Position numbers and translations under genes: made by a program. 64,000 nt of DNA from Radicibacter daui (GTDB taxonomy: Bacteria > Pseudomonadota > Alphaproteobacteria > Radicibacterales > Radicibacteraceae), in NCBI GenBank assembly GCA_030657355.1, contig CP131056.1, positions 637,001 to 701,000 of the forward strand, read 5' to 3'. Under the pieces are notes generated by a model that worked only from the letters and a program-made list of their open reading frames with translations, was not told the DNA's origin and searched no databases. Position 1 is the stretch's first letter; each line of letters begins with the position of its first letter. Shown here piece after piece: positions 22,772 to 45,530 of the stretch.

Positions 22772-24142
22772 ATGGCTTTTTCGTCGCTTGATTCCGCGCT
22801 GGTCGGCCCGCTGTTTGTGACGCCGCAGATGGCGGAGGTCTTCAGCGAGCGCACGCAGATCGCCGCCATGCTGCGCATGGAAACGGCGCTTGCCCGCGCC
22901 GAGGCTGCACTCGGCATCGTTCCGGCGGAACTCGCTGCGGCACTCGGCGCCATCACCCCGGATCACCTCGATATCGCCGCGCTGGGGCAGGCGACCGGCG
23001 TTGCCGGCGTTCCCGTCATCCCCTTCGTCAAGGCGGTGCAGGCCCTGCTGCCGAAGGAACTGGAACCGGCCTTCCATAAAGGCGCCACCACGCAGGATGT
23101 GGTCGATACCGCCCTTGCCCTGCAAATGGCCGCCGCCTTCCCGCTGCTGGCGCAGGATCTGGCCGCTACCCTCACCGGGCTTACCGCGCTGGCGGACAGG
23201 CACCGCGCCACCGCCTGCGCCGGGCGCACCTATGGCCAGCACGCCGCGCCCGTCAGCTTCGGCTACAAGGCTGCCGTCTGGCTGGCCGGGCTCAGCGATG
23301 TCGCGGCCGCGCTGCCGGTGCTCAAATCCCGCGTCTGTGCCGTATCGCTGGGCGGGCCGGTCGGCACGCTTTCCGGCCTTGGTGCCCATGGTGTGGCGGT
23401 GATGGAAGCCGTGGCTGCCGATCTTGGCCTTTCTGCCCCCGTCATCACCTGGCACACGCTGCGCGGGCGGGTGGTGGAGGCGGGCTCCTGGCTTAGCCAG
23501 CTCATCGGCGCGCTCGCAAAATTTGCCGGCGACGTTGCCCACCTTGCCTCCACCGAAGTGGGGGAGGTGGCGGAACCGTTCATGCCCGGGCGTGGCGGCT
23601 CTTCCGCCATGCCGCACAAGCGCAACCCGGTGGGGGCGACCGTCATTCTGGCCGCGCAGGCTGCCGCAAAGGGGCACCTCATCACGCTCTTCGATGCCAT
23701 GGCGGCCGCGCATGAGCGCCCGGCCGGCCTCTGGCATGGCGAATGGCACGCCCTGCCGCAGCTTTTTGGCCTCGCCTCTGGCGCACTCGCCGAAGCCCGG
23801 CGCCTTGCCGAGGGGCTGGTGGTGGATGGGGGGCGCATGCGGCGCAATCTCGATCTGACGCAGGGCCTCCTCTTCACCGACGCCGTTGCCGCCCGTCTGG
23901 CCCCCAGCCTTGGGCGCGGCGCCGCCCATCATCGGGTGGAGGAATTTGCCGCTGCCGTGCGCGATACCGGTCGCTCGCTGAAACAGGTGCTGGAGGCAGC
24001 CCCCGGCCTGCCACCGGAGCTGACCGGCGAGGCGCTTGCCACCCTGTTTGATCCATCCCCGGCGCTGAAGCGCGCCGAGCCGCTGATTGACCGTGCGCTG
24101 GTCGAAGCCCGGCGCGTCGCTCAAGCCCTTCAGGAGTTCTGA
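22772..24142 (+). CDS. pcaB: 3-carboxy-cis,cis-muconate cycloisomerase
   Basis: The product is 456 aa from ATG 22772 with GGGAGG upstream. It is a fumarase/adenylosuccinate-lyase fold enzyme: SLDSALVGPLFVTPQMAEVFSERTQIAAMLRMETALARAEAALG at the N-terminus, HKGATTQDVVDTA near residue 105, TYGQHAAPVSFGYK near 152, and the signature loop GGSSAMPHKRNPV near 275. It converts 3-carboxymuconate to 4-carboxymuconolactone. It is about 450 aa, like Pseudomonas PcaB, rather than the ~350 aa of some rhizobial forms. The stop lies four bases before pcaL. Confidence 0.95.
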   Translation: MAFSSLDSALVGPLFVTPQMAEVFSERTQIAAMLRMETALARAEAALGIVPAELAAALGAITPDHLDIAALGQATGVAGVPVIPFVKAVQALLPKELEPAFHKGATTQDVVDTALALQMAAAFPLLAQDLAATLTGLTALADRHRATACAGRTYGQHAAPVSFGYKAAVWLAGLSDVAAALPVLKSRVCAVSLGGPVGTLSGLGAHGVAVMEAVAADLGLSAPVITWHTLRGRVVEAGSWLSQLIGALAKFAGDVAHLASTEVGEVAEPFMPGRGGSSAMPHKRNPVGATVILAAQAAAKGHLITLFDAMAAAHERPAGLWHGEWHALPQLFGLASGALAEARRLAEGLVVDGGRMRRNLDLTQGLLFTDAVAARLAPSLGRGAAHHRVEEFAAAVRDTGRSLKQVLEAAPGLPPELTGEALATLFDPSPALKRAEPLIDRALVEARRVAQALQEF

Positions 24143-24146
24143 TCCC

Positions 24147-25343
24147 ATGCCGCTCATCAATGCCGGCGCCGCCACGCTCCATTATGACCTGACCGGCCCG
24201 GAAGGCGCGCCGGTCATCCTTTTTTCCAACTCTCTCGGCACCAAGCTCGAGATGTGGGACGGGGTGGTGGCGAAGCTTGCCGGGCGCTGGCGCTGCCTGC
24301 GGTACGATACGCGCGGCCATGGCCGCTCCCCGGTGGTGGAAAACGGGGCGGTGGCGACCCATCGCCTTGAAGATCTGGCCGATGATATGGCCGGGCTGTT
24401 GAAGGCGCTCGATATTCAAAGTGCGCATATCGCCGGCCTGTCGCTGGGCGGCATGACGGCGCAGGCTTTCGGCGCCCGCCATCCGGCCATGACCCGCACG
24501 CTCACCCTGATGGCAACCGGCGCCCGGCTGGAGCCGGTATCCGCCTGGGTGGACAGGGCAGCAAAGGTGCGGGCATCCGGTATGGATTGGCTGGTCGAGC
24601 CGACCATGAGCCGCTGGTTTACCCCCAGCTTCCACACCAGCCATCCCGAAGCGGTTGCTGAATGCCGGCGCATTTTTGCCGCCAATAATCCGGCAGGTTA
24701 TGCTGCCTGCTGCGATGCCATCTCGGTGATGGATCTGCGGGAGAGCAACAAGGCAATTACGGCGCCGACCCTTATCATCGCCGGTGCCAATGATGAAGCA
24801 ACGCCCCCGGCGCTGAGTGTCGAGATGCAAGGCCGCATTCCGGGCAGCGAGCTCGTCATCCTGAGCGACGCCGCCCATCTGCTGGCAAGCCAGCATCCGG
24901 CACTGGTGGCGGAGTATCTCGAAAGCTTCCTGCTGCGCCATGAGCCGCAGCCGGCGCAAAAGCGTGCGGGCGGCCCTAGTTTTGAGGAAGGGCTCGCCAA
25001 CCGCAAATCGGTGCTGGGGGCAGAGCATGTAGAGCGCTCGCTGGCCAAGGCCGGCGACTTCGCCATGCCGTGGCAGGATTTTATCACCCGCACCGCCTGG
25101 GGCGAGATCTGGGGCGATGAAACGCTGCCGCGAAAGACACGCTCCATCATCACCCTTGCCATGATGGTCGCCCTGCACCGGGAGGAGGAGTTCAAGCTCC
25201 ATGTCCGCCCGGCGCTAAAGAACGGCGTGACCATTTCCGAGCTACAATCGCTCCTCATGCAAACCGCCATCTATGGCGGCGTGCCGGCGGCCAATGCGGC
25301 TTTCCGCTGGGTGCGTGAGGTGCTGGGGGACGAGCTGGATTAA
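24147..25343 (+). CDS. pcaL: Fused 3-oxoadipate enol-lactonase / 4-carboxymuconolactone decarboxylase
   Basis: The product is 398 aa and combines two enzymes. Residues about 1-262 are an alpha/beta-hydrolase (PcaD) with nucleophile Ser99 in GLSLGG, acid Asp near ANDEATPP and His in SDAAHLLA. Residues about 270-398 are PcaC (GLANRKSVLGAEHVERSL, DFITRTAWGEIWGDETLPRKTRSIITLAMMVAL, MQTAIYGGVPAANAAFRW). It performs two consecutive steps, from 4-carboxymuconolactone to 3-oxoadipate. AGGAG precedes ATG 24147. Such fusions are called pcaL. It ends 17 bp from the convergent pcaR. Confidence 0.95.
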   Translation: MPLINAGAATLHYDLTGPEGAPVILFSNSLGTKLEMWDGVVAKLAGRWRCLRYDTRGHGRSPVVENGAVATHRLEDLADDMAGLLKALDIQSAHIAGLSLGGMTAQAFGARHPAMTRTLTLMATGARLEPVSAWVDRAAKVRASGMDWLVEPTMSRWFTPSFHTSHPEAVAECRRIFAANNPAGYAACCDAISVMDLRESNKAITAPTLIIAGANDEATPPALSVEMQGRIPGSELVILSDAAHLLASQHPALVAEYLESFLLRHEPQPAQKRAGGPSFEEGLANRKSVLGAEHVERSLAKAGDFAMPWQDFITRTAWGEIWGDETLPRKTRSIITLAMMVALHREEEFKLHVRPALKNGVTISELQSLLMQTAIYGGVPAANAAFRWVREVLGDELD

Positions 25344-25360: not shown

Positions 25361-26194
25361 TCAGCCCCCGCCCAGCACCGCCGAAACTTCCTGCGCCGTC
25401 GCGCGCAGCGTCTCCAGAATGGGCCCGGTCAGGCGGTCGAGGTCTACACGGCCGGCCTGGGTGCCGATATTCATTGCCGCCACCACCTGCCCGCCGGGGC
25501 CGAGAACGGGCACGGCGATGGAGCGCAGGCCAAGCTCCAGCTCCTGATCCATCAGCGCATAACCCTGCTGGCGTACCCTCGTCAGTTCCTCGCGCAGCGA
25601 GTCCGGCGTCACGCGGGTAAAGGGCGTGTGCGGCGTGCGGTCCATGTTCGGCAGGCGCCGCTCCATCTCCGCTTCCGGCAGGGCGGCCAGCAGCACCCGG
25701 CCCATCGAGGTGTGGAAGGCCGGCAGGCGGGAGCCGACAGAAAGCCCGATGGACATGATGCGCCGCGTGGCCGCACGGGCCACATAGACGATCTCGTCGC
25801 CATCCAGAATCGAGAGCGAGCAGCTTTCATTCAGCGTTTCGCTCACCCGCTCGAGGAAGGGTTGGGCAATACGCGGCAGTGGCATGGATGAGAGATAGGA
25901 GTAGCCGATGGTCAGCACGCGCGGCGTCAGGCTGAAATAACGCCCGTCATTTTCGGCATAACCCAGCTCCACCAGCGTCAGCAGCGAGCGGCGCACGGTG
26001 GCGCGCGTCAGGCCGGTGGCCTTGGCGGCATCGGCCAGTGTCATGCGCGGACGCCCGGCGCCGAAGGCGCGCATCACCGCAAGGCCGCGCGCCAGCGCGG
26101 TGACGAAGGTGCCGTCGCCACCCTCGGGTGCCGATACCTCATTATGCACTGATAAGGCTTGGTTTTCTGCCTTTTTTGTCCCCGGCGTTTCCAT
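25361..26194 (-). CDS. pcaR: IclR-family regulator of the beta-ketoadipate pathway
   Basis: The product is 277 aa. An N-terminal winged HTH (TFVTALARGLAVMRAFG...MTLADAAKATGLTRATVRRSLLTLVELGYAENDGRYFSLTPRVLTIGYSYLSS) is followed by an IclR effector domain containing SILDGDEIVYVAR, SVGSRLPAFHTSMGRVLLA and LRSIAVPVLGPGGQVVAAMNIGTQA. The fit is to the PcaR/PcaU/PobR subgroup. It is divergent from pcaI across a region carrying a perfect GTTCG-N5-CGAAC element. In Pseudomonas PcaR activates pca genes with beta-ketoadipate; the same is likely here. Confidence 0.92.
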   Translation of the reverse strand: METPGTKKAENQALSVHNEVSAPEGGDGTFVTALARGLAVMRAFGAGRPRMTLADAAKATGLTRATVRRSLLTLVELGYAENDGRYFSLTPRVLTIGYSYLSSMPLPRIAQPFLERVSETLNESCSLSILDGDEIVYVARAATRRIMSIGLSVGSRLPAFHTSMGRVLLAALPEAEMERRLPNMDRTPHTPFTRVTPDSLREELTRVRQQGYALMDQELELGLRSIAVPVLGPGGQVVAAMNIGTQAGRVDLDRLTGPILETLRATAQEVSAVLGGG

Positions 26195-30805: not shown

Positions 30806-30859
30806 TTGACAGCCGGAATGAGCCGTCTCATATTTTTTGTACATCAAGGTACAAAAAAT
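30806..30859 (+). promoter_or_regulatory. Promoter with 28-bp palindromic operator before the TetR gene
   Basis: TTGACA (30806-30811), 17 bp, then CATATT (30829-30834). Starting inside the -10 is a perfect inverted repeat: ATTTTTTGTAC (30832-30842), 6-bp spacer, GTACAAAAAAT (30849-30859). An operator here would cover the transcription start and so repress. The adjacent TetR protein is the natural candidate. Confidence 0.7.
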
Positions 30860-30958
30860 AAACACAAGGGCAGGGAACAGGGAGACGGTCTTCCAGGATG
30901 TCGGACGCAGGCCCCATTGAGCGGGACCGTCCGGCCGGAAGACCACCCGGACGCTGGC

Positions 30959-31720: not shown

Positions 31721-32653
31721 ATGATGACCTTGCGCCAGATCGAGGTCGTGCGCGCCATCATGGTTGCCGGCAGCATTGCCGGGGCCGCGCGGCTGCTCAA
31801 CGTGGCGCAGCCGGGTGTCAGCCGCACGATGAAGCATCTGGATTCCACACTCGGCTTTCATCTCTTCGTGCGGCAGAACGGCCGCTACGTACCCTCTCCT
31901 GAGGCGCGGCGGGTGTTTGACCAGCTGCAGGAGATGCACAAGAAACTCGAGGACCTTCAATTTTCGATCGGGCAGCTAAACCGCGGCAAGGATGTCGAAT
32001 GGTCCCTGGCCTCGGTTCCCAGCATCGCGAATGTCATGGTTCCGCGTGCCATTGCCGGCTTACGGGCTCGCTATCCTGATCTCGTGGTCGATTTTGACAT
32101 CATCAAGCTTGAGGATGCGATCGACTATCTGCTGCTGGAGCGGGGTGAGCTGGCGGTCATGAGCTACCGGCTGGAGCATCCAGCGCTTACCTTCGAGCCA
32201 CTGGCCATCGGGCATCTCGTTTGTATCTGCGCGCCCGATCATCCGCTTGCCGGGCTCGGTGAGGTGACTGTTGCGCAGATCGCAGCCTTCCCCCTCATCG
32301 GCATTGATCCCAATGACCCCTACGGCGGCATCATGGCCGGCCTGTTTCAGCGGGCAGGTCTTTCCTATGACATCTCGATCCGCGCTCGCTTCGGCACAAC
32401 CGTCTGCGCATTGGTCAAACAGAACCTCGGTGTCGCCGTCATAGACATCTTTACGGTTGCCGACCGGCAGAACAGCGGGCTTGCCATCCTTCCGATCCGG
32501 GAGCCCACCGTCTTTCAGACCTATGTGGGCATGCGCAAGGATGCCGAACTTTCCAGCTATGCGGAAACTTTCGTCCGGCAATTGCGCCAGACCATGACGG
32601 CGACACTTGCGGCCGGAACCCCAGGTTCAGGGGCGAAAAGGGGGCATGTATAA
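31721..32653 (+). CDS. LysR-family transcriptional regulator
   Basis: The product is 310 aa. The winged HTH is TLRQIEVVRAIMVAGSIAGAARLLNVAQPGVSRTMKHLDSTLGFHLFVRQNGRYVPSPEA, residues 3-62. The substrate-binding-protein-like effector domain follows (SLASVPSIANVMVPRAIAGLRARYPDLVVDFD...). GGAGG is eight bases before the ATG. It is read with the TetR gene and lies upstream of the AroE-liv-quiC set, whose leader contains palindromes. It is a good candidate activator of that operon. The inducer is likely a hydroaromatic acid (inference). Confidence 0.82.
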   Translation: MMTLRQIEVVRAIMVAGSIAGAARLLNVAQPGVSRTMKHLDSTLGFHLFVRQNGRYVPSPEARRVFDQLQEMHKKLEDLQFSIGQLNRGKDVEWSLASVPSIANVMVPRAIAGLRARYPDLVVDFDIIKLEDAIDYLLLERGELAVMSYRLEHPALTFEPLAIGHLVCICAPDHPLAGLGEVTVAQIAAFPLIGIDPNDPYGGIMAGLFQRAGLSYDISIRARFGTTVCALVKQNLGVAVIDIFTVADRQNSGLAILPIREPTVFQTYVGMRKDAELSSYAETFVRQLRQTMTATLAAGTPGSGAKRGHV

Positions 32654-32672
32654 CATGATGATATGCCCCCTT
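32638..32672 (+). terminator. Hairpin overlapping the LysR stop codon
   Basis: AAGGGGGCAT (32638-32647) and ATGCCCCCTT (32663-32672) form a perfect 10-bp stem around a 15-base loop that contains the stop codon. The T-run is only two bases, so termination strength is uncertain. Confidence 0.55.
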
Positions 32673-32777
32673 GAGCCCTTGGTATTTGATTTTCCTCTCT
32701 TGCGGCCAGAAGCTGACCAAAAGGGAGGTGAAGTTGATTTCCGTTAGATTTTCGAATTTGCGTGGGTGTTGGAAGAT

Positions 32778-32803
32778 ATTTTGTGCAAAATCTGATCGAT
32801 TTT
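32778..32803. promoter_or_regulatory. Two overlapping palindromes upstream of the shikimate operon
   Basis: ATTTTG-TG-CAAAAT (32778-32791) overlaps AAAATC-TGATC-GATTTT (32787-32803). Both are perfect inverted repeats in an AT-rich gap 145-170 bp before the AroE-like gene. ATC-N5-GAT is reminiscent of LysR-type half-sites. The neighbouring LysR and TetR proteins are candidate binders. Confidence 0.5.
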
Positions 32804-32842
32804 GGCGAATGGTTTTGGTTCGTGGCGGGTGCTTTTACTTTA

Positions 32843-32878
32843 AAAATTCAAAATTAATTTTTTTTAATTTTGAATTTT
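32843..32878. repeat. 36-bp AT-rich perfect inverted repeat
   Basis: The arms AAAATTCAAAATTAA (32843-32857) and its exact complement (32864-32878) flank six T residues. Each arm has only one G/C base, against a genome near 65% G+C. It lies 70 bp before the AroE-like gene, after the probable promoter. It could form a leader hairpin, a cruciform or a protein site. Confidence 0.75.
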
Positions 32879-32947
32879 GGTGTGAAATATCGCTGCATCG
32901 ATTTGGCTTGGTGACCCCGAATAATCTGGCCGGGGAGCTGTGCTGAA

Positions 32948-33760
32948 ATGGCCATCTCTCTTTCTGGCGAAACCCGGCTGTTTCCTGTGGTGGGTGATCC
33001 CATCGCCCAGGTGAAGTCACCCGCCCTGCTATCTGCCCTGATGGCGGACAGAGCGCGGGATGCGATCGTACCGCCGGTACATGTCGCTCCTGCTGATCTC
33101 GCACCGGTCATCGGCGCATTCGGAATGCTCCGGAATCTCGACGGTGTTTTGGTTACCGTTCCGCACAAGATAGCGGCCTTTTCCTTGTGTTCCCGGGTAA
33201 CGGACCGCGCCAGGTTTGCCGGGTCGGTCAACGTTATGCGCAAGGCGGCGGGAGGCTGGCTTGGCGACAACACCGACGGTCAGGGATTCGTCAACGGCAT
33301 CGAGCTGGCCGGGCAGTCGGTGGCCGATAAAAAAGTGCTTCTGGTCGGGTGCGGCGGTGCCGGTTCCGCCATTGCGCTCGAATTCATGATAGGCGGCGCC
33401 GCGCAGCTTGCCCTTCACGATATCGATCAGGCCCGGCGCGACCGGGTGATCGACGCCCTTTCCTGGCGCTTTCCCGGCAAGGTCGTAACCGGCGGCACTG
33501 ACCCCTCGGGTTTCGACATCATCGCCAATGCAACGCCCATGGGCATGCAGCCGGGCGACCCATTGCCTGTCGATGTGGCCGGTCTGTCATCCGGCCAGTT
33601 TGTCGCCTGCGTGATTACCAAGCCGGAAAATTCTCCGCTCGTTGAGGCAGCCCGGCAGCGTGGCTGCCGGACGATGAACGGGCTCGGGATGTTCATGGCG
33701 CAGGCCGACATCCTCGCGGATTTTCTGCTCTTCTCTGACAAAACGGCCCGGGAGGACTGA
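32948..33760 (+). CDS. AroE-like shikimate/quinate dehydrogenase (catabolic type)
   Basis: The product is 270 aa. Catalytic Lys74 (TVPHK), Asn95 (GSVNVMR) and Asp110 (DNTDGQGF) are all present. The NAD(P)-binding motif is VLLVGCGGAGSAIALEF at about 129-145. In biosynthetic AroE the N-terminal motif is SKSP; here it reads Q-V-K-S-P (residues 21-25), so Ser24 is kept and the first serine is Val22. That resembles the catabolic AroE-like paralogues. It would oxidise shikimate (or a related acid) to 3-dehydroshikimate, the substrate of the QuiC enzyme at 39294. First gene of the uptake/degradation operon. Confidence 0.87.
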   Translation: MAISLSGETRLFPVVGDPIAQVKSPALLSALMADRARDAIVPPVHVAPADLAPVIGAFGMLRNLDGVLVTVPHKIAAFSLCSRVTDRARFAGSVNVMRKAAGGWLGDNTDGQGFVNGIELAGQSVADKKVLLVGCGGAGSAIALEFMIGGAAQLALHDIDQARRDRVIDALSWRFPGKVVTGGTDPSGFDIIANATPMGMQPGDPLPVDVAGLSSGQFVACVITKPENSPLVEAARQRGCRTMNGLGMFMAQADILADFLLFSDKTARED

Positions 33761-33851
33761 CAGAAGAGAGGAGTGTCTCCAGCTGAAAAATCGGGGCGAT
33801 GGTGCTTGGGAGACGGCGCCTCAAATCGGCCCGGCTAACAGGGAGGGAATG

Positions 33852-34988
33852 ATGAAACTGGTAAAACTGCTGGCCATTTCTGCTACGGCAATGGCGATTG
33901 CGGGTGCGGCGCATGCGGCCGATACAGTCAAGGTCGGCATGATCGCCGAACTGTCCGGTCCCGGTGCCCCGTCCGGTACCAACTGGCGGGACGGAACGCG
34001 TCTTGCCACCGAAGAAATCAATGCGGATGGCGGCATTCTCGGCAAGCAGGTCGAGGTCAGCGAATTTGATACCCAGACCGACCCGCAGACCTCGCGCGCC
34101 CTTGTCCAGAAAGCCATCGACGATGGCGCCTATGCCATCTGGGGGACGGTCTATTCCGGTTCAACGATGGTCAACATGCTGGTCGCCCAGCAGAACAGTG
34201 TGCCGCAATTCGTCGGTTCCGAAGCCCCGGCCATCGTGCAGAAGGGCAACCCTTTCGTCTTCCGCACCTCTTCCGGCGCACAGAAGGGTATTCCCGACCT
34301 CACCTCCTATTTCAAGCGCACGCTTGATGCCAAGACGGTCGGCATTGCCTGGGTCAATAATGAGTTCGGCAAGGGCGGCCATGATGTCTTTGCCGCGCAA
34401 ATGGAAAAGCTGGGCATCAAGGTCGTGGCAGATGTCGCCTCCGAGCAGGGCCAGACCGACTATGCTGCCGACGTCTCCAAGCTCAAGGAAGCCGCTCCGG
34501 CGGCCATCTTCGTCTACATGAACCAGGAAGAATCCGCGCGTTTCCTGATTGAGGCGAAAAAGCAGGGCCTGACCATGCCGCTGATCGGCGAGGTTACCCT
34601 GACCGAGGCCAAGGTGGTTGAGCTGGCCGGTGATGCTGCCGAAGGCGCTATCGCCCATGTCGGCCTGACCGCCAGCGCCACCAGTGTGCCGGGTATCGCC
34701 GAGTTCGTGACGAAGTTCGAGGCCAAGTTCAATCGCCACCCGACACATGATGCCATCAAGGGTTATATCGGGGCCTGGGCGACGAAATACGTCACCGAAA
34801 TGGTCGGCAAGTTTGACGGGGAGGCGTTCTCCAACGTCATGCACGGGCTCTGCCTCGATGCGAAAAGCTATCCGCACATGCTTCTCGACACCTGCTGGGA
34901 TGAGCATGGCGAGATGTCCCGCCCGAGCTTCATGGTTCAGGTGACGGGCGGCAAGGCGGAAGTGATCGGGATCGTCAACTCGAACTGA
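33852..34988 (+). CDS. Liv-type ABC transporter substrate-binding protein
   Basis: The product is 378 aa. ATG 33852 is four bases after GGGAGGG; ATG 33849 is an alternative. A signal peptide ends AHA-A near residue 22. The mature chain starts DTVKVGMIAELSGPGAPSGTNWRDGTRLATEEINADGGILGKQVEVSEFDTQTDP, a classic LivK/type I periplasmic-binding fold. Family members bind branched-chain amino acids or aromatic and hydroaromatic acids. Its place between the AroE-like and permease genes argues for a shikimate-type ligand. First of five transport genes. Confidence 0.9.
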   Translation: MKLVKLLAISATAMAIAGAAHAADTVKVGMIAELSGPGAPSGTNWRDGTRLATEEINADGGILGKQVEVSEFDTQTDPQTSRALVQKAIDDGAYAIWGTVYSGSTMVNMLVAQQNSVPQFVGSEAPAIVQKGNPFVFRTSSGAQKGIPDLTSYFKRTLDAKTVGIAWVNNEFGKGGHDVFAAQMEKLGIKVVADVASEQGQTDYAADVSKLKEAAPAAIFVYMNQEESARFLIEAKKQGLTMPLIGEVTLTEAKVVELAGDAAEGAIAHVGLTASATSVPGIAEFVTKFEAKFNRHPTHDAIKGYIGAWATKYVTEMVGKFDGEAFSNVMHGLCLDAKSYPHMLLDTCWDEHGEMSRPSFMVQVTGGKAEVIGIVNSN

Positions 34989-35067
34989 TCCGGGCCCTTC
35001 GTTGCAGCGGCGGCTCCCCTGCGAGCCGCCGCTGTGCTCCCGCTACTCGAGAGCAGAAAACACCGAC

Positions 35068-35946
35068 ATGTCCCAGTTTCTCCAGGTAATGCTGTCCGGC
35101 CTGGCGACCGGCTCGATCTACGCCCTTGTGGCGATTGGCTTCACGCTCATCTGGCAATCGGCGAAAACCGTCAATTTTGCCCAGGGCGAGTTCGTGATGC
35201 TGCCCGCCTTTTTTGTCCTTGTCTGCACCAAGGTACTGGCCCTGCCACTATGGCTGGCCCTGATCGTTGCCCTCGCGGTCACGGTCGTCGTGCTGGGTGT
35301 ACTGTTCAAGAAACTGGTCGTAGAGCCAATCCTGCCCTCGGGCGGCATCCCGCTCACCATCGCGACCATGGCTCTCGCCATCTTTTTGAAAGAGAGCGTG
35401 AAGGAATTTTATGGCGCCGAGGCCCAACCCTTTCCGCCGCTGTTTCCTTCCCAGACGCTCAATGTCTTCGGCGCGGTCATCTCGTTGCAGGACATTTGCA
35501 ATCTCGTGGTTGCGCTGGCGATCGTGGTGGTGCTGACCCTGTTCCTCAATCGCACCCGAACAGGTCGCTGCATGCAGGCCGCGGCCCAGAACCCGGCAGT
35601 GGCGGAAATTCTCGGCATCAACGTGAGGCGCATGGTGCTCTACGCCTTCCTCATCAATGGTGCGCTGGCGGCTCTCGCTTCGTTTCTCATTACCCCGGTT
35701 TATCTGGCCAAATTCTCCAATGGCGAGGTCCTGGGCCTCATCGCCTTCATTGCCGCCATTGTCGGCGGCTTCAACCAGATCAGGGGTGCGCTTGCCGGCG
35801 GCTTGCTGATCGGCGTGCTCGATAACCTGACCGCGACCTATGTCACGGCTGAGTATCGCGCCGCCCTGCCGCTCGTCCTGCTGATCGTCGTCATTCTGGT
35901 GCGCCCGCAGGGACTGCTCGGCACCTCGGAAGGGAGGGCCGTTTGA
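35068..35946 (+). CDS. ABC transporter permease, LivH type
   Basis: The product is 292 aa from ATG 35068; an upstream TTG-type start at 35002 lacks family similarity. It has about eight hydrophobic helices, beginning SQFLQVMLSGLATGSIYALVAIGFTLIWQSAKTVNFAQGEFVMLPAFF, the LivH signature. The EAA-like loop region (AQNPAVAEILGINVRRMVLYAF) near residue 180 contacts the ATPases. It is inner-membrane. The stop shares one base with the livM start. Confidence 0.92.
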   Translation: MSQFLQVMLSGLATGSIYALVAIGFTLIWQSAKTVNFAQGEFVMLPAFFVLVCTKVLALPLWLALIVALAVTVVVLGVLFKKLVVEPILPSGGIPLTIATMALAIFLKESVKEFYGAEAQPFPPLFPSQTLNVFGAVISLQDICNLVVALAIVVVLTLFLNRTRTGRCMQAAAQNPAVAEILGINVRRMVLYAFLINGALAALASFLITPVYLAKFSNGEVLGLIAFIAAIVGGFNQIRGALAGGLLIGVLDNLTATYVTAEYRAALPLVLLIVVILVRPQGLLGTSEGRAV

Positions 35947-36929
35947 TGACCCGCCTCAACAAGCGCCCGGCGCTTTTGCTTTTCTTGCTGGTGCTGGCTA
36001 TTCTCGCACCGCTGGGTCACGGCAATTACATCATCTATGTGCTGACTTCGTGGCTGATTTTTTCCATTGCTGCCATGGGGCTCAATCTCACGCTTGGATA
36101 TGCTGGCCAGATCTCGCTGGCCCAGGCCTCCTTCATGGCCATTGGCGCCTATACGACGGCGATCATGACCCTGGCGGGTTGGCACTGGCTCATTGCTGCC
36201 CCGGTGGGCATGGTTCTGTGTTTTCTGGTTGGCCTGGTGCTGGGTTATCCAGCGCTCAGGGTCAAAGGCCACTTCCTTGCCTTCGTCACGCTGGCCTTCA
36301 ACACGCTGGTCTTCCTTGTCCTGCGTAATGAGGACTGGCTGACCGGCGGTTCCTATGGCCTCTCCAGCATGCCGCGCCCGGATTTCTATCTGTTCAAGAC
36401 GCTCAAGCAGTTGCCCTTCTACTATTTCACGCTCGCGGTAACGGTCGTTGCCGCGCTGGTGCTGTGGGGCATCGTGCGGTCTCCCTGGGGGCGTGCCTTC
36501 AAGGCTCTGCGGGAAAACCCGGTCCGGGCGGAAAGTCTTGGGGTCGATACGCGGCGCATCACCCTGCTGGCCTTTGCCATCGGCTCTGCCTATGCGGGGC
36601 TTGCCGGGGCGCTGGTCTCGCCGCTGGTGCAATATATCGACCCGGGCTCCTTCGGCCTGTCGCAGTCGCTGCGCATCCTGCTGATGGTCGTGGTGGGGGG
36701 CTCCGGCTTCTTTTTCGGGCCCTTTGTCGGCGCTGCGGTGGTCATCCTGCTGCCAGAGATGCTGCGCTTCACCGCGGGCTACTACCTCATCATCTATTCG
36801 GCTCTGGTCATCGTCATGCTGGCTTACGTGCCGAACGGCCTGATTGGCATCGGCACGCGGCTGCGCGAGCGGTTCTGGCCGCAGCACCGGGCCCGTGGTG
36901 ACCTTGCAAAAGGAGCACAGCTCAAGTGA
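35946..36929 (+). CDS. ABC transporter permease, LivM type
   Basis: The product is 327 aa from ATG 35946 (TGATG junction with the LivH gene). Hydrophobic helices begin at the N-terminus. AAMGLNLTLGYAGQISLAQASFMAIGAYTTAIM near residue 38 is the LivM signature, and REN-PVRAESLGVDTRRITLLAFAIGSAYAGLAGAL near 195 is the coupling loop. It pairs with LivH in the membrane. The C-terminal tail is basic and cytoplasmic, overlapping livG by four bases. Confidence 0.92.
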   Translation: MTRLNKRPALLLFLLVLAILAPLGHGNYIIYVLTSWLIFSIAAMGLNLTLGYAGQISLAQASFMAIGAYTTAIMTLAGWHWLIAAPVGMVLCFLVGLVLGYPALRVKGHFLAFVTLAFNTLVFLVLRNEDWLTGGSYGLSSMPRPDFYLFKTLKQLPFYYFTLAVTVVAALVLWGIVRSPWGRAFKALRENPVRAESLGVDTRRITLLAFAIGSAYAGLAGALVSPLVQYIDPGSFGLSQSLRILLMVVVGGSGFFFGPFVGAAVVILLPEMLRFTAGYYLIIYSALVIVMLAYVPNGLIGIGTRLRERFWPQHRARGDLAKGAQLK

Positions 36930-37672
36930 CCGCTCCCGCTCTTTCAGTCCGCAACATCTCCAAGACTTTTGGCACGATCCGGGCCGTCAACGATGTGAGC
37001 TTTGATGTTCGCACCGGTGAAATTCTGGGCCTCATCGGGCCCAATGGCTCGGGAAAATCCACGCTCTTCAACTGCATTCTCGGCCAGTTACCACCCGATG
37101 GCGGCGCTGTGCATGTCGCAGGACAGCAGGTTTCAGGCAGTCGGGCCTGCGACCTCAGCAAGCTCGGGGTGGGCCGCACCTTCCAGCAGCTCTCGGTTTT
37201 TCCGCAGATGAGCGTGCTCGATAACGTGATCCTCGCCGGGCAGGAGCATCATGGCTCCATGCTCTCCCGCCTCTTCGGTAAACCGGACGCCGGCCTGACT
37301 GCAGATGCGGAGAAGATGATTTCCTTCTTCCGCCTTGAACATCTGCGCGATGAACTGGCGGGCTCCCTTTCCTACGGTCAGCAGAAGTTGCTCGATGCGG
37401 CGATGGCCTTCATGGCGGGGCCGGGGCTGGTGCTGCTGGATGAGCCTGCGGGCGGGGTCAATCTCACCATGCTCGCTCACCTCAAGGAGCGGCTGCAGAC
37501 CTACAACGCCGAACACGGGACGACTTTCGTGGTCATCGAGCACAACATGGAGTTCGTCATGTCCTTGTGCTCGCGCATCATCGTGCTGGCGGAGGGGGCC
37601 ATCATCGCTGAAGGAACGCCGGACGAGATCCGCTCCAACCAGCAGGTCATCGACGCGTATCTGGGAGGCTGA
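36926..37672 (+). CDS. ABC transporter ATPase, LivG type
   Basis: The product is 248 aa with a GTG start; AAGGAG lies about 12 bases upstream. Walker A is GPNGSGKST, the signature is LSYGQQKLLDAA, Walker B is LVLLDEPAGGVN, and the H-loop is VVIEHNM. The long insert after VGRTFQQLSVFPQMSVLDNV is typical of LivG. It energises uptake with LivF. The GTG overlaps the LivM stop. Confidence 0.93.
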   Translation: MTAPALSVRNISKTFGTIRAVNDVSFDVRTGEILGLIGPNGSGKSTLFNCILGQLPPDGGAVHVAGQQVSGSRACDLSKLGVGRTFQQLSVFPQMSVLDNVILAGQEHHGSMLSRLFGKPDAGLTADAEKMISFFRLEHLRDELAGSLSYGQQKLLDAAMAFMAGPGLVLLDEPAGGVNLTMLAHLKERLQTYNAEHGTTFVVIEHNMEFVMSLCSRIIVLAEGAIIAEGTPDEIRSNQQVIDAYLGG

Positions 37673-37674
37673 TG

Positions 37675-38412
37675 ATGCTTGAGCTCAGGAACATCTACGG
37701 CGGCTACGGCAACATCACGATCCTGAACGGTACGTCCTTCAGGATTCCGCCGGCCTCCATCACCACGGTCATCGGGCCGAACGGCGCCGGAAAATCCACC
37801 GTCTTCAAGGCGATCTTCGGTCTCCTCAACATTCACTCGGGAGAAATCCTGTTCGACGGGCAGGATGTCACCGGCCTCAGCCCGGCCCGGATGCTGGCGC
37901 AGGGCGTTACCTATGTGCCGCAAGGGCGCAACGTCATTCCGCAGCTCTCGGTCTTCCACAATCTGGAGCTCGGCGGCATCACGGCCCCGGATCAGGACCG
38001 GGTCAGGGCTCGCATGGAAGAGGTCATGGACCAGTTCCCGATGCTGCGCCAGCGCCGCAACCAGAAAGCCATCGAGCTTTCCGGCGGTCAGCAGAAGCAG
38101 CTCGAGATTGCCCGAGCCCTGCTGCTGGACCCGCGGCTTATCCTCATCGACGAGCCTTCCATCGGTCTGTCGCCCAATCTGGTGCAGGAGGTGTTTCGTA
38201 CTCTGCAAAGGCTGCGCGACCAGGGGGTAACCATCCTGATGGTCGAGCAGAATGCCAAGGCGGCTCTCGCCATGTCCGATTACGGACTGGTGCTGGAACT
38301 GGGCCAGACCCGCCTGCACGACCGGGCAGACAAGCTGCTGGCCGACCCCCGGGTGGGGCAGCTGTTTCTTGGCGGCCATGTGGAAGAGACCACGTCCGCA
38401 GATGCGCATTGA
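37675..38412 (+). CDS. ABC transporter ATPase, LivF type
   Basis: The product is 245 aa. ATG 37675 is six bases after GGGAGG; ATG 37672 is an alternative overlapping the LivG stop. Walker A GPNGAGKST, signature LSGGQQKQLEIARALL, Walker B LILIDEPSIGLSP and MVEQNA (H-loop position as Gln-Asn, usual for LivF) are present. It ends inside the first codons of the SMP-30 gene, so the lactonase-like protein is made with the transporter. Confidence 0.93.
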   Translation: MLELRNIYGGYGNITILNGTSFRIPPASITTVIGPNGAGKSTVFKAIFGLLNIHSGEILFDGQDVTGLSPARMLAQGVTYVPQGRNVIPQLSVFHNLELGGITAPDQDRVRARMEEVMDQFPMLRQRRNQKAIELSGGQQKQLEIARALLLDPRLILIDEPSIGLSPNLVQEVFRTLQRLRDQGVTILMVEQNAKAALAMSDYGLVLELGQTRLHDRADKLLADPRVGQLFLGGHVEETTSADAH

Positions 38413-39293: not shown

Positions 39294-41186
39294 ATGAAGA
39301 CCTCGATCGCGACAGTCTCCATATCGGGGAATTTTGAAGAGAAGCTGGCTGCTATCCGTGAGGCCGGATATGACGGGCTTGAGATTTTCGAGCAGGATTT
39401 TCTGGCCGATGCGGCAGGTCCGGCTGAAATCGGACGCATGATCCGCGACCAGGGGCTGGAGATCCTGCTCTTTCAGCCATTCCGTGATTTTGAAGGCATG
39501 CCTGCCGCCGAGCGGGTCAGGGCTTTTGACCGGGCGGAACGCAAGTTCGATCTGATGCAGGCGCTGGGCACTGATCTTATGCTGGTGTGTTCCAGCGTTT
39601 CGCCGCTGGCGCTCGGCGGGATCGACCGTGCGGCCGATGATCTGGCGGAGCTGGGGGAACGGGCGCGGGCGCGGGGCCTCCGGGTCGGGTATGAAGCGCT
39701 GGCCTGGGGGCGGCATGTGAATGACCATCGCGACGCATGGGAAATCGTGCGCCGGGCGGATCATCCCAATATCGGCCTTATCCTCGACAGCTTCCACTCG
39801 CTGGCCCGCAAGATCGATCCGGATACCATCCGGCGCATTCCGGGCGACCGCATTTTCTTCGTCCAGCTTGCCGATGCGCCAGTGATCGAGATGGATCTGC
39901 TCTACTGGTCGCGCCACTTCCGTAACATGCCGGGCGAAGGCGATCTGCCAGTGGCCGACTTCATGGCGGCGGTAATGTCCACCGGCTATCGCGGCCCCAT
40001 CAGCCTTGAGATTTTTAACGACCAGTTCCGGGGCGGCGATACCAAGCTGGTTGCCCGCGATGGTTATCGCTCACTCATTTCCCTCATGGACACTGTCCGC
40101 CGGCAGGAGCCGGAGCTGAAGATCGACCTGCCTCCGCTGCCGCCCCCTGCAACCCTGGAAGGGGCGGCGTTTCTGGAGTTCTGCAGCCGTGGGGCGGAGG
40201 CGGAAAATCTGGAACGCCTGCTGGCGACCCTCGGTTTCAGCCGTGCCGGTCATCACGTCTCCAAGCAGGTGGCACTCTGGCGGCAGGGTGACGTCCATTT
40301 GCTGGTCAATCGGCAGACGGAGGGATATGCGGCAAGTGCCTATGCGATGCATGGCACAACGGTGTGCGATATCGGCCTTTCGGTGAGCAATGCCAGGGCG
40401 ACCATCGAGCGGGCGACGCGGCTCGGGTCGCGGCCATTTCATCAGCCTGCCGGGCCGGGTGAACTCGATATTCCGGCGATCCGCGGCCTCAGCGGCAGCC
40501 TGCTGCATTTCATCGACAAGGCCTCCGGCCTTTCTTCCTTGTGGGAGGTCGATTTCCGGCCAGAGGAGGATGGAGAAGCTGCGGCGGGCGCCGGCTTGCT
40601 GCGGGTCGACCATATCGCCCAGACCATGTCCTATCAGGACATGCTCAGCTGGACGTTGTTCTACACCGCGCTTTTCCGCATGAAGAAATCGCCGATGATC
40701 GACGTGATCGATCCGGACGGGATCGTGCGCAGCCAGGCCGTCGAGGCGGAAGATTGCAGCCTGCGCATTACCCTGAATGGCGCGGATACTCACAGGACCC
40801 TTGCCGGCGAGTTTCTCTCGGGCAGTTTCGGCGCCAGCGTCCAGCATGTGGCCATGGCGACGGATGACATCTTCTCGACCGCTTCCCGGTTGCAGCAGCT
40901 GGGGTTCCTGCCCCTGCCGATCACGCCCAACTATTACGGCGACCTTGCTGCCCGCTTCGATATTGCTCCGGAACTTCTGGAGCGGATGCAGGCGGCAAAT
41001 ATCCTTTATGACCGGGATGCCGGTGGAGAGTTTTTCCAGCTTTATTCCCCGCCACTCGAAAACGGCATGTTCTTCGAGATTGTCGAACGGCGGGGGGGCT
41101 ATGCCGGCTATGGCGCTCCCAATGCCCCGTTCCGCATTGCCGCGCAGAAACGGTTTTTGCGTCCCAAGGGTGTGCCGCGGCGGTAG
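39294..41186 (+). CDS. quiC: 3-dehydroshikimate dehydratase fused to HPPD-like domain
   Basis: The product is 630 aa with AAGGA before ATG 39294. Residues 1-~285 are a TIM-barrel sugar-phosphate-isomerase/AP-endonuclease-2 domain (FEEKLAAIREAGYDGLEIFEQDF, LGLILDSFHSLARKIDP-like, ISLEIFNDQFRGGD) with the dehydratase metal ligands. Residues ~300-630 are a vicinal-oxygen-chelate repeat like 4-hydroxyphenylpyruvate dioxygenase (LLRVDHIAQTMSYQDMLSW, VQHVAMATDDIFST, GGEFFQLYSPPLENGMFFEIVERR). Pseudomonas QuiC1 has the same two-domain layout. It dehydrates 3-dehydroshikimate to protocatechuate, feeding pcaHG. The role of the second domain is unclear. Confidence 0.9.
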   Translation: MKTSIATVSISGNFEEKLAAIREAGYDGLEIFEQDFLADAAGPAEIGRMIRDQGLEILLFQPFRDFEGMPAAERVRAFDRAERKFDLMQALGTDLMLVCSSVSPLALGGIDRAADDLAELGERARARGLRVGYEALAWGRHVNDHRDAWEIVRRADHPNIGLILDSFHSLARKIDPDTIRRIPGDRIFFVQLADAPVIEMDLLYWSRHFRNMPGEGDLPVADFMAAVMSTGYRGPISLEIFNDQFRGGDTKLVARDGYRSLISLMDTVRRQEPELKIDLPPLPPPATLEGAAFLEFCSRGAEAENLERLLATLGFSRAGHHVSKQVALWRQGDVHLLVNRQTEGYAASAYAMHGTTVCDIGLSVSNARATIERATRLGSRPFHQPAGPGELDIPAIRGLSGSLLHFIDKASGLSSLWEVDFRPEEDGEAAAGAGLLRVDHIAQTMSYQDMLSWTLFYTALFRMKKSPMIDVIDPDGIVRSQAVEAEDCSLRITLNGADTHRTLAGEFLSGSFGASVQHVAMATDDIFSTASRLQQLGFLPLPITPNYYGDLAARFDIAPELLERMQAANILYDRDAGGEFFQLYSPPLENGMFFEIVERRGGYAGYGAPNAPFRIAAQKRFLRPKGVPRR

Positions 41187-44307: not shown

Positions 44308-44343
44308 CCCCTGCCGCATTTTCTGATGCGGCGGGGGTATTTT
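44308..44343 (+). terminator. Intrinsic terminator of glpD
   Basis: CCCC-T-GCCGCAT (44308-44319) pairs with ATGCGGC-G-GGGG (44326-44337), one G-T pair included, around loop TTTCTG, followed by TATTTT. It is 57 bp past the glpD stop. Confidence 0.85.
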
Positions 44344-44585
44344 GCATTGCCGGTTAGTCGTCGCCGCTGGGTATATAAAAATCGAGTCTCGTATATCATT
44401 TAGTCTTATCAATGACGTATAAACCTCAGAAGAATCGCAGGATTTCTGCGGATAAAATGCCATTTTAATTAAAATTGAGCAGATGAATTGAAAAATAATA
44501 ATCCATATTGTATGACTTAATCCGCTCGGGATCAGCCCCGTGCCAGAGAAAAATAATCGCCCTATCGGGAGGGAGAGTTTCAACA
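44344..44585 (+). other. AT-rich promoter/leader region of the ytfQ operon
   Basis: This gene-free stretch of about 240 bp is far more AT-rich than its flanks. It holds a short hairpin CGCAG-N5-CTGCG (44436-44450) and a perfect 14-bp palindrome ATTTTAATTAAAAT (44462-44475). GGGAGGGAG just before ATG 44586 is a strong RBS. The palindrome is a candidate site for a sugar-responsive regulator. No convincing -35/-10 pair stands out. Confidence 0.4.
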
Positions 44586-45530
44586 ATGCTGAACAAGACG
44601 CTCGCCGGGCTGGTGCTCGGCGCCGGGGTTGCTTTTGCCTGCGCACAGGCCAGCGCCCTGACTATCGGTTTTTCGCAGATCGGCTCGGAAAGCGGCTGGC
44701 GCACCTCCGAGACCGCCTCGATCAAGGCCGAAGCCGAAAAGCGCGGCATCGACCTTAAATTCTCCGACGCCCAGCAGAAGCAGGAGAACCAGATCAAGGC
44801 GCTGCGCTCCTTCATCGCCCAGGGCGTGGATGGCATCCTCCTCGCCCCGGTGGTGGAAACCGGCTGGGACCAGGTGCTGAAGGAAGCCAAGGACGCCAAG
44901 ATTCCGGTGGTGCTGGTTGACCGCGGCGTGGCCGCAGACCCCTCGCTCTACCTCACCAAGGTCGCCTCCGACTTTGCCGAGGAAGGCTCGCTGGCTGCTT
45001 CCTGGCTTGCCGCCCATACCAATGGCAAGTGCGATATTGTCGAGCTGCAGGGCACCGTCGGCTCTTCCGCCGCGATTGACCGCAAGAAGGGTTTCGAAGC
45101 TGTCGTCAGCAACTTCCCCAACATGAAGATCATTCGCTCCCAGTCGGGTGACTTCACCCGCGCCGGCGGCAAGGAAGTGATGGAAAGCTTCCTCAAGGCC
45201 GAAAATGGCGGCAAGTCGATCTGCGCGCTTTATGCCCATAATGACGACATGGCCCTTGGTGCCATCCAGGCCATCAAGGAAGCCGGCCTCAAGCCGGGCA
45301 AGGACATCACCATCATCTCCATCGACGGTGTGCCGGACATCTTCAAGGCGATGGCCGATGGCGAAACCAACGCCACCATCGAGCTGAACCCGCATCTGGG
45401 CGGCCCCTCCTTCGACGCCATCAATGCCGCCAAGGAAGGCAAGGAAGTGCCGAAGTGGATCAAGGCCAACGGCCCGCTCTACCTGCCGGATACGGCAGCG
45501 GCGGAATACGCCAAGCGTACGGCCAAGTAA
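44586..45530 (+). CDS. ytfQ: Galactofuranose-type sugar ABC transporter substrate-binding protein
   Basis: The product is 314 aa. A signal peptide of about 24 residues ends ASA. LTIGFSQIGSESGWRTSETASIKAEAEKRGIDLKFSDAQQKQENQIKALRSFIAQGVDGILLAPVVETGWD is nearly diagnostic of YtfQ. LYLTKVASDFAEEGSLAASWLA, SGDFTRAGGKEVMESFL and YAHNDDMALGAIQAIKEAG follow. It is a periplasmic binder of hexofuranoses such as galactofuranose in the E. coli system. First of ytfQ-ytfR-ytfT-yjfF. Confidence 0.92.
   Translation: MLNKTLAGLVLGAGVAFACAQASALTIGFSQIGSESGWRTSETASIKAEAEKRGIDLKFSDAQQKQENQIKALRSFIAQGVDGILLAPVVETGWDQVLKEAKDAKIPVVLVDRGVAADPSLYLTKVASDFAEEGSLAASWLAAHTNGKCDIVELQGTVGSSAAIDRKKGFEAVVSNFPNMKIIRSQSGDFTRAGGKEVMESFLKAENGGKSICALYAHNDDMALGAIQAIKEAGLKPGKDITIISIDGVPDIFKAMADGETNATIELNPHLGGPSFDAINAAKEGKEVPKWIKANGPLYLPDTAAAEYAKRTAK

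Follow-up and report, generated by a model that had tools for sequence, protein, structure and literature searches.

In our comparison of the region between a LysR-family regulator gene and the quinate/shikimate-type operon that follows it, we found that the regulator gene carries a conserved LysR-type box at its stop codon, and this is a firmer result than the AT-rich hairpin further downstream to which a first-pass annotation had drawn attention. The hairpin (32843-32878 of the window, by which we mean the whole 64,000-nucleotide stretch of DNA that was analyzed) is a real, non-random inverted repeat that is ordinary in kind and may or may not have a function; it is a single element, found in none of the compared loci. 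Quinate/shikimate loci of Alphaproteobacteria repeatedly show such a box on the lysR stop codon, so that the start of the operon becomes predictable and the role of the hairpin directly testable.

The genes of the locus run in the order pcaI-pcaJ-pcaF-pcaH-pcaG, tetR, lysR and, beyond the intergenic gap, an aroE-like dehydrogenase gene, five ABC-transporter genes and the gene for a QuiC-like dehydratase, a set that we take to represent the route from quinate/shikimate to protocatechuate. The calls of pcaF, pcaH and pcaG passed their curated cut-offs, and those of pcaI and pcaJ were weak (E-values of 1.9e-5 and 2.5e-7, below cut-off). For the remaining genes that concern us (lysR, aroE, the transporter genes and quiC) the matches fell below curated cut-offs, and the names we give them hold for the family. 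The LysR-family regulator gene (31721-32653, plus strand), homologs of which adjoin quinate/shikimate genes in other loci, did not reach the equivalog cut-off, and the first gene of the operon, a shikimate/quinate dehydrogenase-like gene of the aroE family (32948-33760, plus strand), matched TIGR00507 with an E-value of 6.3e-39, below the curated cut-off. The transporter genes (33849-38412, plus strand) are of the branched-chain-amino-acid type at family level and encode a binding protein, two permeases and two ATPases. The 3-dehydroshikimate dehydratase-like gene (39294-41186, plus strand) is of the QuiC kind, joining a TIM barrel to an HPPD-like part, and matched the QuiC model with an E-value of 2.9e-200 at 667 bits of 1200 cut-off bits. 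Elsewhere in the window, an ORF at 24087-25343 joins alpha/beta hydrolase and carboxymuconolactone decarboxylase domains, presumably as a "PcaL"-like PcaD-PcaC fusion, and it is followed on the other strand by the gene for a PcaR/PcaU-family regulator (IclR type) at 25361-26194.

The repeat itself (unstranded) has arms at 32843-32857 and 32864-32878 in which 15 of 15 pairs are complementary, separated by TTTTTT (AAAATTCAAAATTAA-TTTTTT-TTAATTTTGAATTTT), so that the two perfect 15-bp arms and T6 spacer described in the first-pass annotation were confirmed along with the position and the 36-bp length; only the term AT-only had to be given up, as 34 of the 36 bases are A or T and C32849 pairs with G32872. 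We shuffled the regions 32676-32947 (272 bp) and 32821-32900 (80 bp) 1000 times each with dinucleotides preserved, and the longest perfect arms that arose were 10 bp and 12 bp, respectively, with none of the 1000 shuffles of either region reaching the observed 15. The arm has no second copy at one mismatch or fewer in the 5.06-Mb genome, and one place matches it with two mismatches. Within the window the half-site AATTTTGAATTTT had no further match with fewer than two mismatches, and at up to three mismatches there were six matches (both arms counted) against 3.4 expected. A 401-base query around the repeat matched only itself at an E-value of 0.001, and our plasmid and phage searches gave nothing better than an E-value of 0.3 among the matches listed (the best 20 of 50 plasmid records and all 5 of 5 phage records). 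On these results and the lack of a second copy of the arm we set aside a repeat family or mobile element. A coding role also seems unlikely, as the 91-codon ORF that spans the stretch (32671-32946) had no Pfam match.

That the surrounding 250 bp is unusually AT-rich, as had been claimed, was borne out: the richest 250-bp segment lying wholly within the lysR-aroE gap has an A+T fraction of 0.612 against a mean of 0.359 over 464 kb of the same genome, and 165 of 45,851 segments of that size are richer. Those within 0.02 of the gap value or above it fall into 10 islands, the gap's own included. The AT-rich, G/T-skewed stretch of the gap is at 32715-32900 (unstranded, limits approximate). Another AT-rich intergenic island lies at 44321-44591, before an ORF that starts near 44586 and has, by eye, a signal-peptide-like start. 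In a background set composed of the window and sixty 20-kb segments of its genome (1.264 Mb, with 10,000 bases masked) we found 184 perfect inverted repeats with arms of at least 10 and spacers of 3-12, and just two of these had an A+T fraction of at least 0.65, namely 32843-32878 and a palindrome at 30831-30860, which lie 2 kb apart.

The LysR-type box, ATA-n9-TAT at 32650-32664 (plus strand), contains the motif T-N11-A (32651-32663) and overlaps the lysR stop codon (32651-32653). We compared 45 loci, consisting of the window, L004 and L023, 12 plasmid records (used out of 101 that matched in the plasmid search) and 30 loci read from other genomes (41 of 397 genomes matched in the genome search); the lysR homologs compared were 43-67% identical, and it is this homolog that defines a locus, the same-operon status of the next gene not being implied for every one. 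The box pattern TAACATNATGNTA, derived from the window, L004 and L108, was sought from 20 nt before the lysR stop codon to 40 nt after it and was present with one mismatch or fewer in 24 of the 45 loci and with two or fewer in 30, the other 15 having more than two. The reversed pattern was found in 0 of 45 at either level, and shuffled regions gave 0.02 and 0.5 per 45. When the window, L004 and L108 were left out of the 24 with one mismatch or fewer, 21 of 42 loci remained. The match begins right at the lysR stop codon in 21 of these 24 loci (in 19 of the 42 that remain without the three pattern sources), and in the whole genome the pattern has no other match at up to one mismatch.

A second conserved element, GGTATTTG (32681-32688, plus strand), occurs at one mismatch or fewer in 28 of the 45 loci when the first 60 nt beyond the lysR stop are searched, and 16 of these matches are exact; a shuffled control gave 1.8 per 45. 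Its placement varies little: in 24 of the 28 it follows the stop by 26-27 nt, and in the window it lies 27 nt after the box and stop, about 155 bp upstream of the hairpin. We infer that it is an activation site or -35 region. Box and GGTATTTG recur together at lysR homologs of Rhizobiales and Rhodobacterales, and the Skermanella box has two mismatches. As a T-N11-A motif with dyad symmetry that is conserved together with its regulator, the box has the features by which LysR-type promoters are recognized, and boxes of this kind are situated some 65 bp upstream of where transcription begins. Since it is conserved over the lysR stop, the operon promoter is probably near 32686-32722 (plus strand); aligning the lysR-locus rows by eye, we would assign a LysR-dependent -35 to TTGATT at 32686-32691, a weak -10 to about 32709-32714 and the start to about 32717-32722. 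The box on the lysR stop and GGTATTTG thereby support the earlier placement of the hairpin between the promoter and the first gene, provided that the conserved promoter (about 32650-32722), with its predicted start, is the one in use. Because the 3' half of GGTATTTG and the -10 look degenerate in the window beside the other aligned rows, transcription could instead begin at a different promoter within the AT-rich stretch; a sigma-70 scan returned nothing on the plus strand and one weak match on the minus strand. We also observed a 10-bp inverted repeat, AAGGGGGCAT/ATGCCCCCTT at 32638-32672, which has the end of lysR together with the LysR-type box between its arms and is followed by no T-run.

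The gap between lysR and aroE measures 294 bp, and the hairpin ends 69 nt before aroE. Among the 44 other loci the median gap was 134 bp in the 26 with an automatic call of 80-400 bp (the 18 dropped had a call that was shorter or absent, some from a wrong start), with a single gap longer than 294 bp (309 bp, in L146), and in six annotated loci it was 120-171 bp. None of the 44 had, within 300 bp after lysR, a longest perfect repeat with arms of at least 7 and an A+T fraction of at least 0.65, and in two of them (L127 and L128) the repeats in that interval were G+C-rich, the arms being 9 and 10 long. Given the long gap and the absence of an AT-rich repeat from the 44 loci, the hairpin and the AT-rich stretch appear to have been added in this lineage. 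Searches at the level of genus, family and order found this genome alone, and at class level aroE was found in 2 of 385 genomes and lysR likewise in 2 of 385, the genome itself included. When we surveyed 80 loci with an aroE homolog, an AT-rich perfect repeat with arms of at least 9 was seen only in L051, which has a palindrome with 13-bp arms at -108 from the aroE homolog, a half-site unlike that of the window and an adjoining IclR-family gene.

Of the explanations that we weighed for the hairpin, we tentatively prefer, at something short of an even chance, that it is transcribed as a stem-loop in the leader and has little or no effect, the start site, the transcription of the repeat and the smallness of the effect all being presumptive. 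The LysR-type regulator would control the quinate/shikimate operon through the conserved box on the end of its own gene, and transcription would start near 32720, which would place some 125 nt of leader ahead of the hairpin, in an untranslated region that is AT-rich and longer than its counterparts in other lineages. The transcript would fold into a 15-bp stem (14 A-U pairs and one G-C pair) closed by a loop of six U, and the start codon would follow 69 nt further on. This stem-loop would at most tune the stability or processing of the leader and may do nothing; it seems unable to end transcription and would leave the ribosome-binding site unmasked.

The folding results speak for such a structure, as do the conserved box and GGTATTTG upstream and a gap about twice the usual length. 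As RNA, the 46 bases of 32838-32883 fold at -12.5 kcal/mol (z -4.9), and as single-stranded DNA at -11.0 kcal/mol. The DNA figure bears on the cruciform that the first-pass annotation offered as another option: a single strand can fold, and extrusion under natural supercoiling may or may not follow. The flanks may extend this into a longer imperfect RNA stem of 15 + 6 + 7 pairs (32822-32896, plus strand), a weak signal in that 32820-32898 folds at -25.9 kcal/mol and 12 of 300 sequences with the core kept and the flanks shuffled did as well (z -2.04). Beyond the core, the folding of the whole leader is unremarkable beside shuffles that keep that core (z -0.75); this, and the lack of a Pfam match for the ORF across the stretch, is what we observed as regards an alternative antiterminator structure or a leader peptide. 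The region of the ribosome-binding site (32895-32965) folds like its shuffles (z 0.23), and for this ordinary folding we rejected masking of that site by the hairpin. The proposal of an attenuator with T-runs found no support, as we found 0 terminator-like sites on either strand of 32550-33050 (1.0 expected by chance), a single G-C pair among the 15 and no T-run after the stem. A search of Rfam with 32500-33100 gave no family at gathering score and a sub-threshold match to mir-203 (18.1 of 65 bits, E-value 0.27). With no terminator, ordinary folding of the leader and ribosome-binding site, no Rfam family and no enrichment of a MucR pattern described below, we put the leader stem-loop first, ahead of a neutral relic, an operator and MucR-type silencing, in that order. 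Against it stand the poor -10, the 15 of 45 loci that lack the box even at two mismatches, and the operator-like palindrome 2 kb away, which as the sole further AT-rich one in 1.26 Mb favors a role at the level of DNA.

Second, and in our judgment rather unlikely, is that the hairpin is a neutral relic, that is, AT-rich extra leader DNA in which template switching during replication would have turned an imperfect repeat into a perfect one. This would agree with the finding of an AT-rich perfect repeat in 0 of the 44 other loci over the 300 bp after lysR and with the lack of a convincing plasmid or phage match among the matches listed. An offset 14-nt repeat with 86% pairing overlaps the perfect one, so a quasi-palindromic background does exist here. 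However, old neutral arms should decay, and the nearness of the palindrome at tetR would have to be a coincidence, for which our post hoc estimate is about 4/1264.

Third comes an operator, also unlikely, at which a dimeric regulator would bind the palindrome and repress the operon, either by acting as a roadblock or by covering a further, internal promoter. The dyad is perfect. Of the 184 repeats in the 1.264-Mb background set just one other is an AT-rich palindrome, and it is located 2 kb from the hairpin, has a spacer of the same 6 nt and covers the -10 and start of tetR, which keeps an operator role in contention. That palindrome (30831-30860, unstranded), TATTTTTTGTAC-ATCAAG-GTACAAAAAATA with 12-bp arms, spans the -10 and expected start of a predicted tetR promoter (TTGACA-17-CATATT, 10 of 12 matches) and from its position is probably a TetR operator; its core has no further copy in the genome at up to two mismatches, and two places match with three. 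However, we saw no likeness between the two palindromes, the hairpin is at 36 bp long for one dimer, its arm lacks a second copy in the genome at one mismatch or fewer, and no promoter-like site lies over it on the plus strand. Dyads of the form GAAT-N3-ATTC occur at most 300 bp upstream of aroE homologs in 18 of 80 other loci, so palindromic control sites are common in this position, and the AT-rich palindrome at -108 in L051, with its adjoining IclR-family gene, adds to the case. The dyad GAAT-N3-ATTC, which is probably an IclR-type operator to which an IclR-family protein would bind, is nevertheless missing from the lysR-aroE gap, and the longer form GGAAT-N3-ATTC had four one-mismatch matches in the window against 10.3 expected, 0 of them in the gap. 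In L051 dyads of this kind are found at about 1994-2164, and they are present in other regions upstream of aroE homologs as well.

The first-pass annotation also suggested a target of a nucleoid silencer of the MucR or H-NS kind. We consider it improbable that the AT-rich stretch nucleates MucR, with the LysR-type regulator counteracting the silencing and the palindrome being incidental. The genome encodes one ROS_MUCR protein (E-value 8.6e-52) and 464 kb of it contain about 10 AT-rich islands, the gap stretch among them, and such silencing could operate on that account. In Brucella and Sinorhizobium, AT-rich DNA in promoter regions is bound by MucR, which the Brucella activator MdrA can displace (PMC8857273, PMC10746212). 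However, A-tracts are reported to weaken MucR binding (PMC5881533), and A-tracts dominate the hairpin, where by eye 32838-32883 has three T-A steps and several A-tracts. The flexible pattern TTx3Gx3Tx10TT, which we searched without the insertions or deletions that the published pattern allows, occurred 1, 1 and 0 times in three 200-bp segments here and is not clearly commoner than in AT-matched segments of the same genome (mean 0.47, n = 219), and silencing of this type would leave the perfect palindrome unexplained. More doubtful still is that the palindrome is a second, lineage-specific control downstream of a conserved LysR-type promoter with a decayed -10, acting as the operator of a dimeric protein or as a temperature-sensing or processing A-U leader stem-loop.

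Set beside known systems, the hairpin resembles Rho-independent attenuators in lying in a probable leader before a first gene and differs from them in its A-U stem, the lack of a following U-run and the lack of any terminator found. It shares with the palindromic TetR- and IclR-type operators of aromatic catabolism an AT-rich dyad near regulator genes, and the tetR palindrome is of that kind by position, but the repeat is longer, shares no half-site that we saw, has no known cognate regulator and has no second copy. As at MucR/Ros targets, the DNA that precedes the operon is AT-rich and a mucR gene is present in the genome, whereas a perfect A-tract-rich palindrome is absent from the target descriptions consulted, the word stem "palindrom" occurring 0 times in the text of PMC5881533. 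A further likeness, to LysR-type promoters and to PcaQ of Sinorhizobium meliloti in particular, concerns the promoter and not the hairpin. The LysR consensus given there is CTATA-n9-TATAG, the core of which our ATA-n9-TAT box fits, and the PcaQ box lies 65.5 bp before its structural gene (PMC5002191), whereas the box described here sits on the regulator's own stop codon, about 290 bp before the first gene of a co-directional operon.
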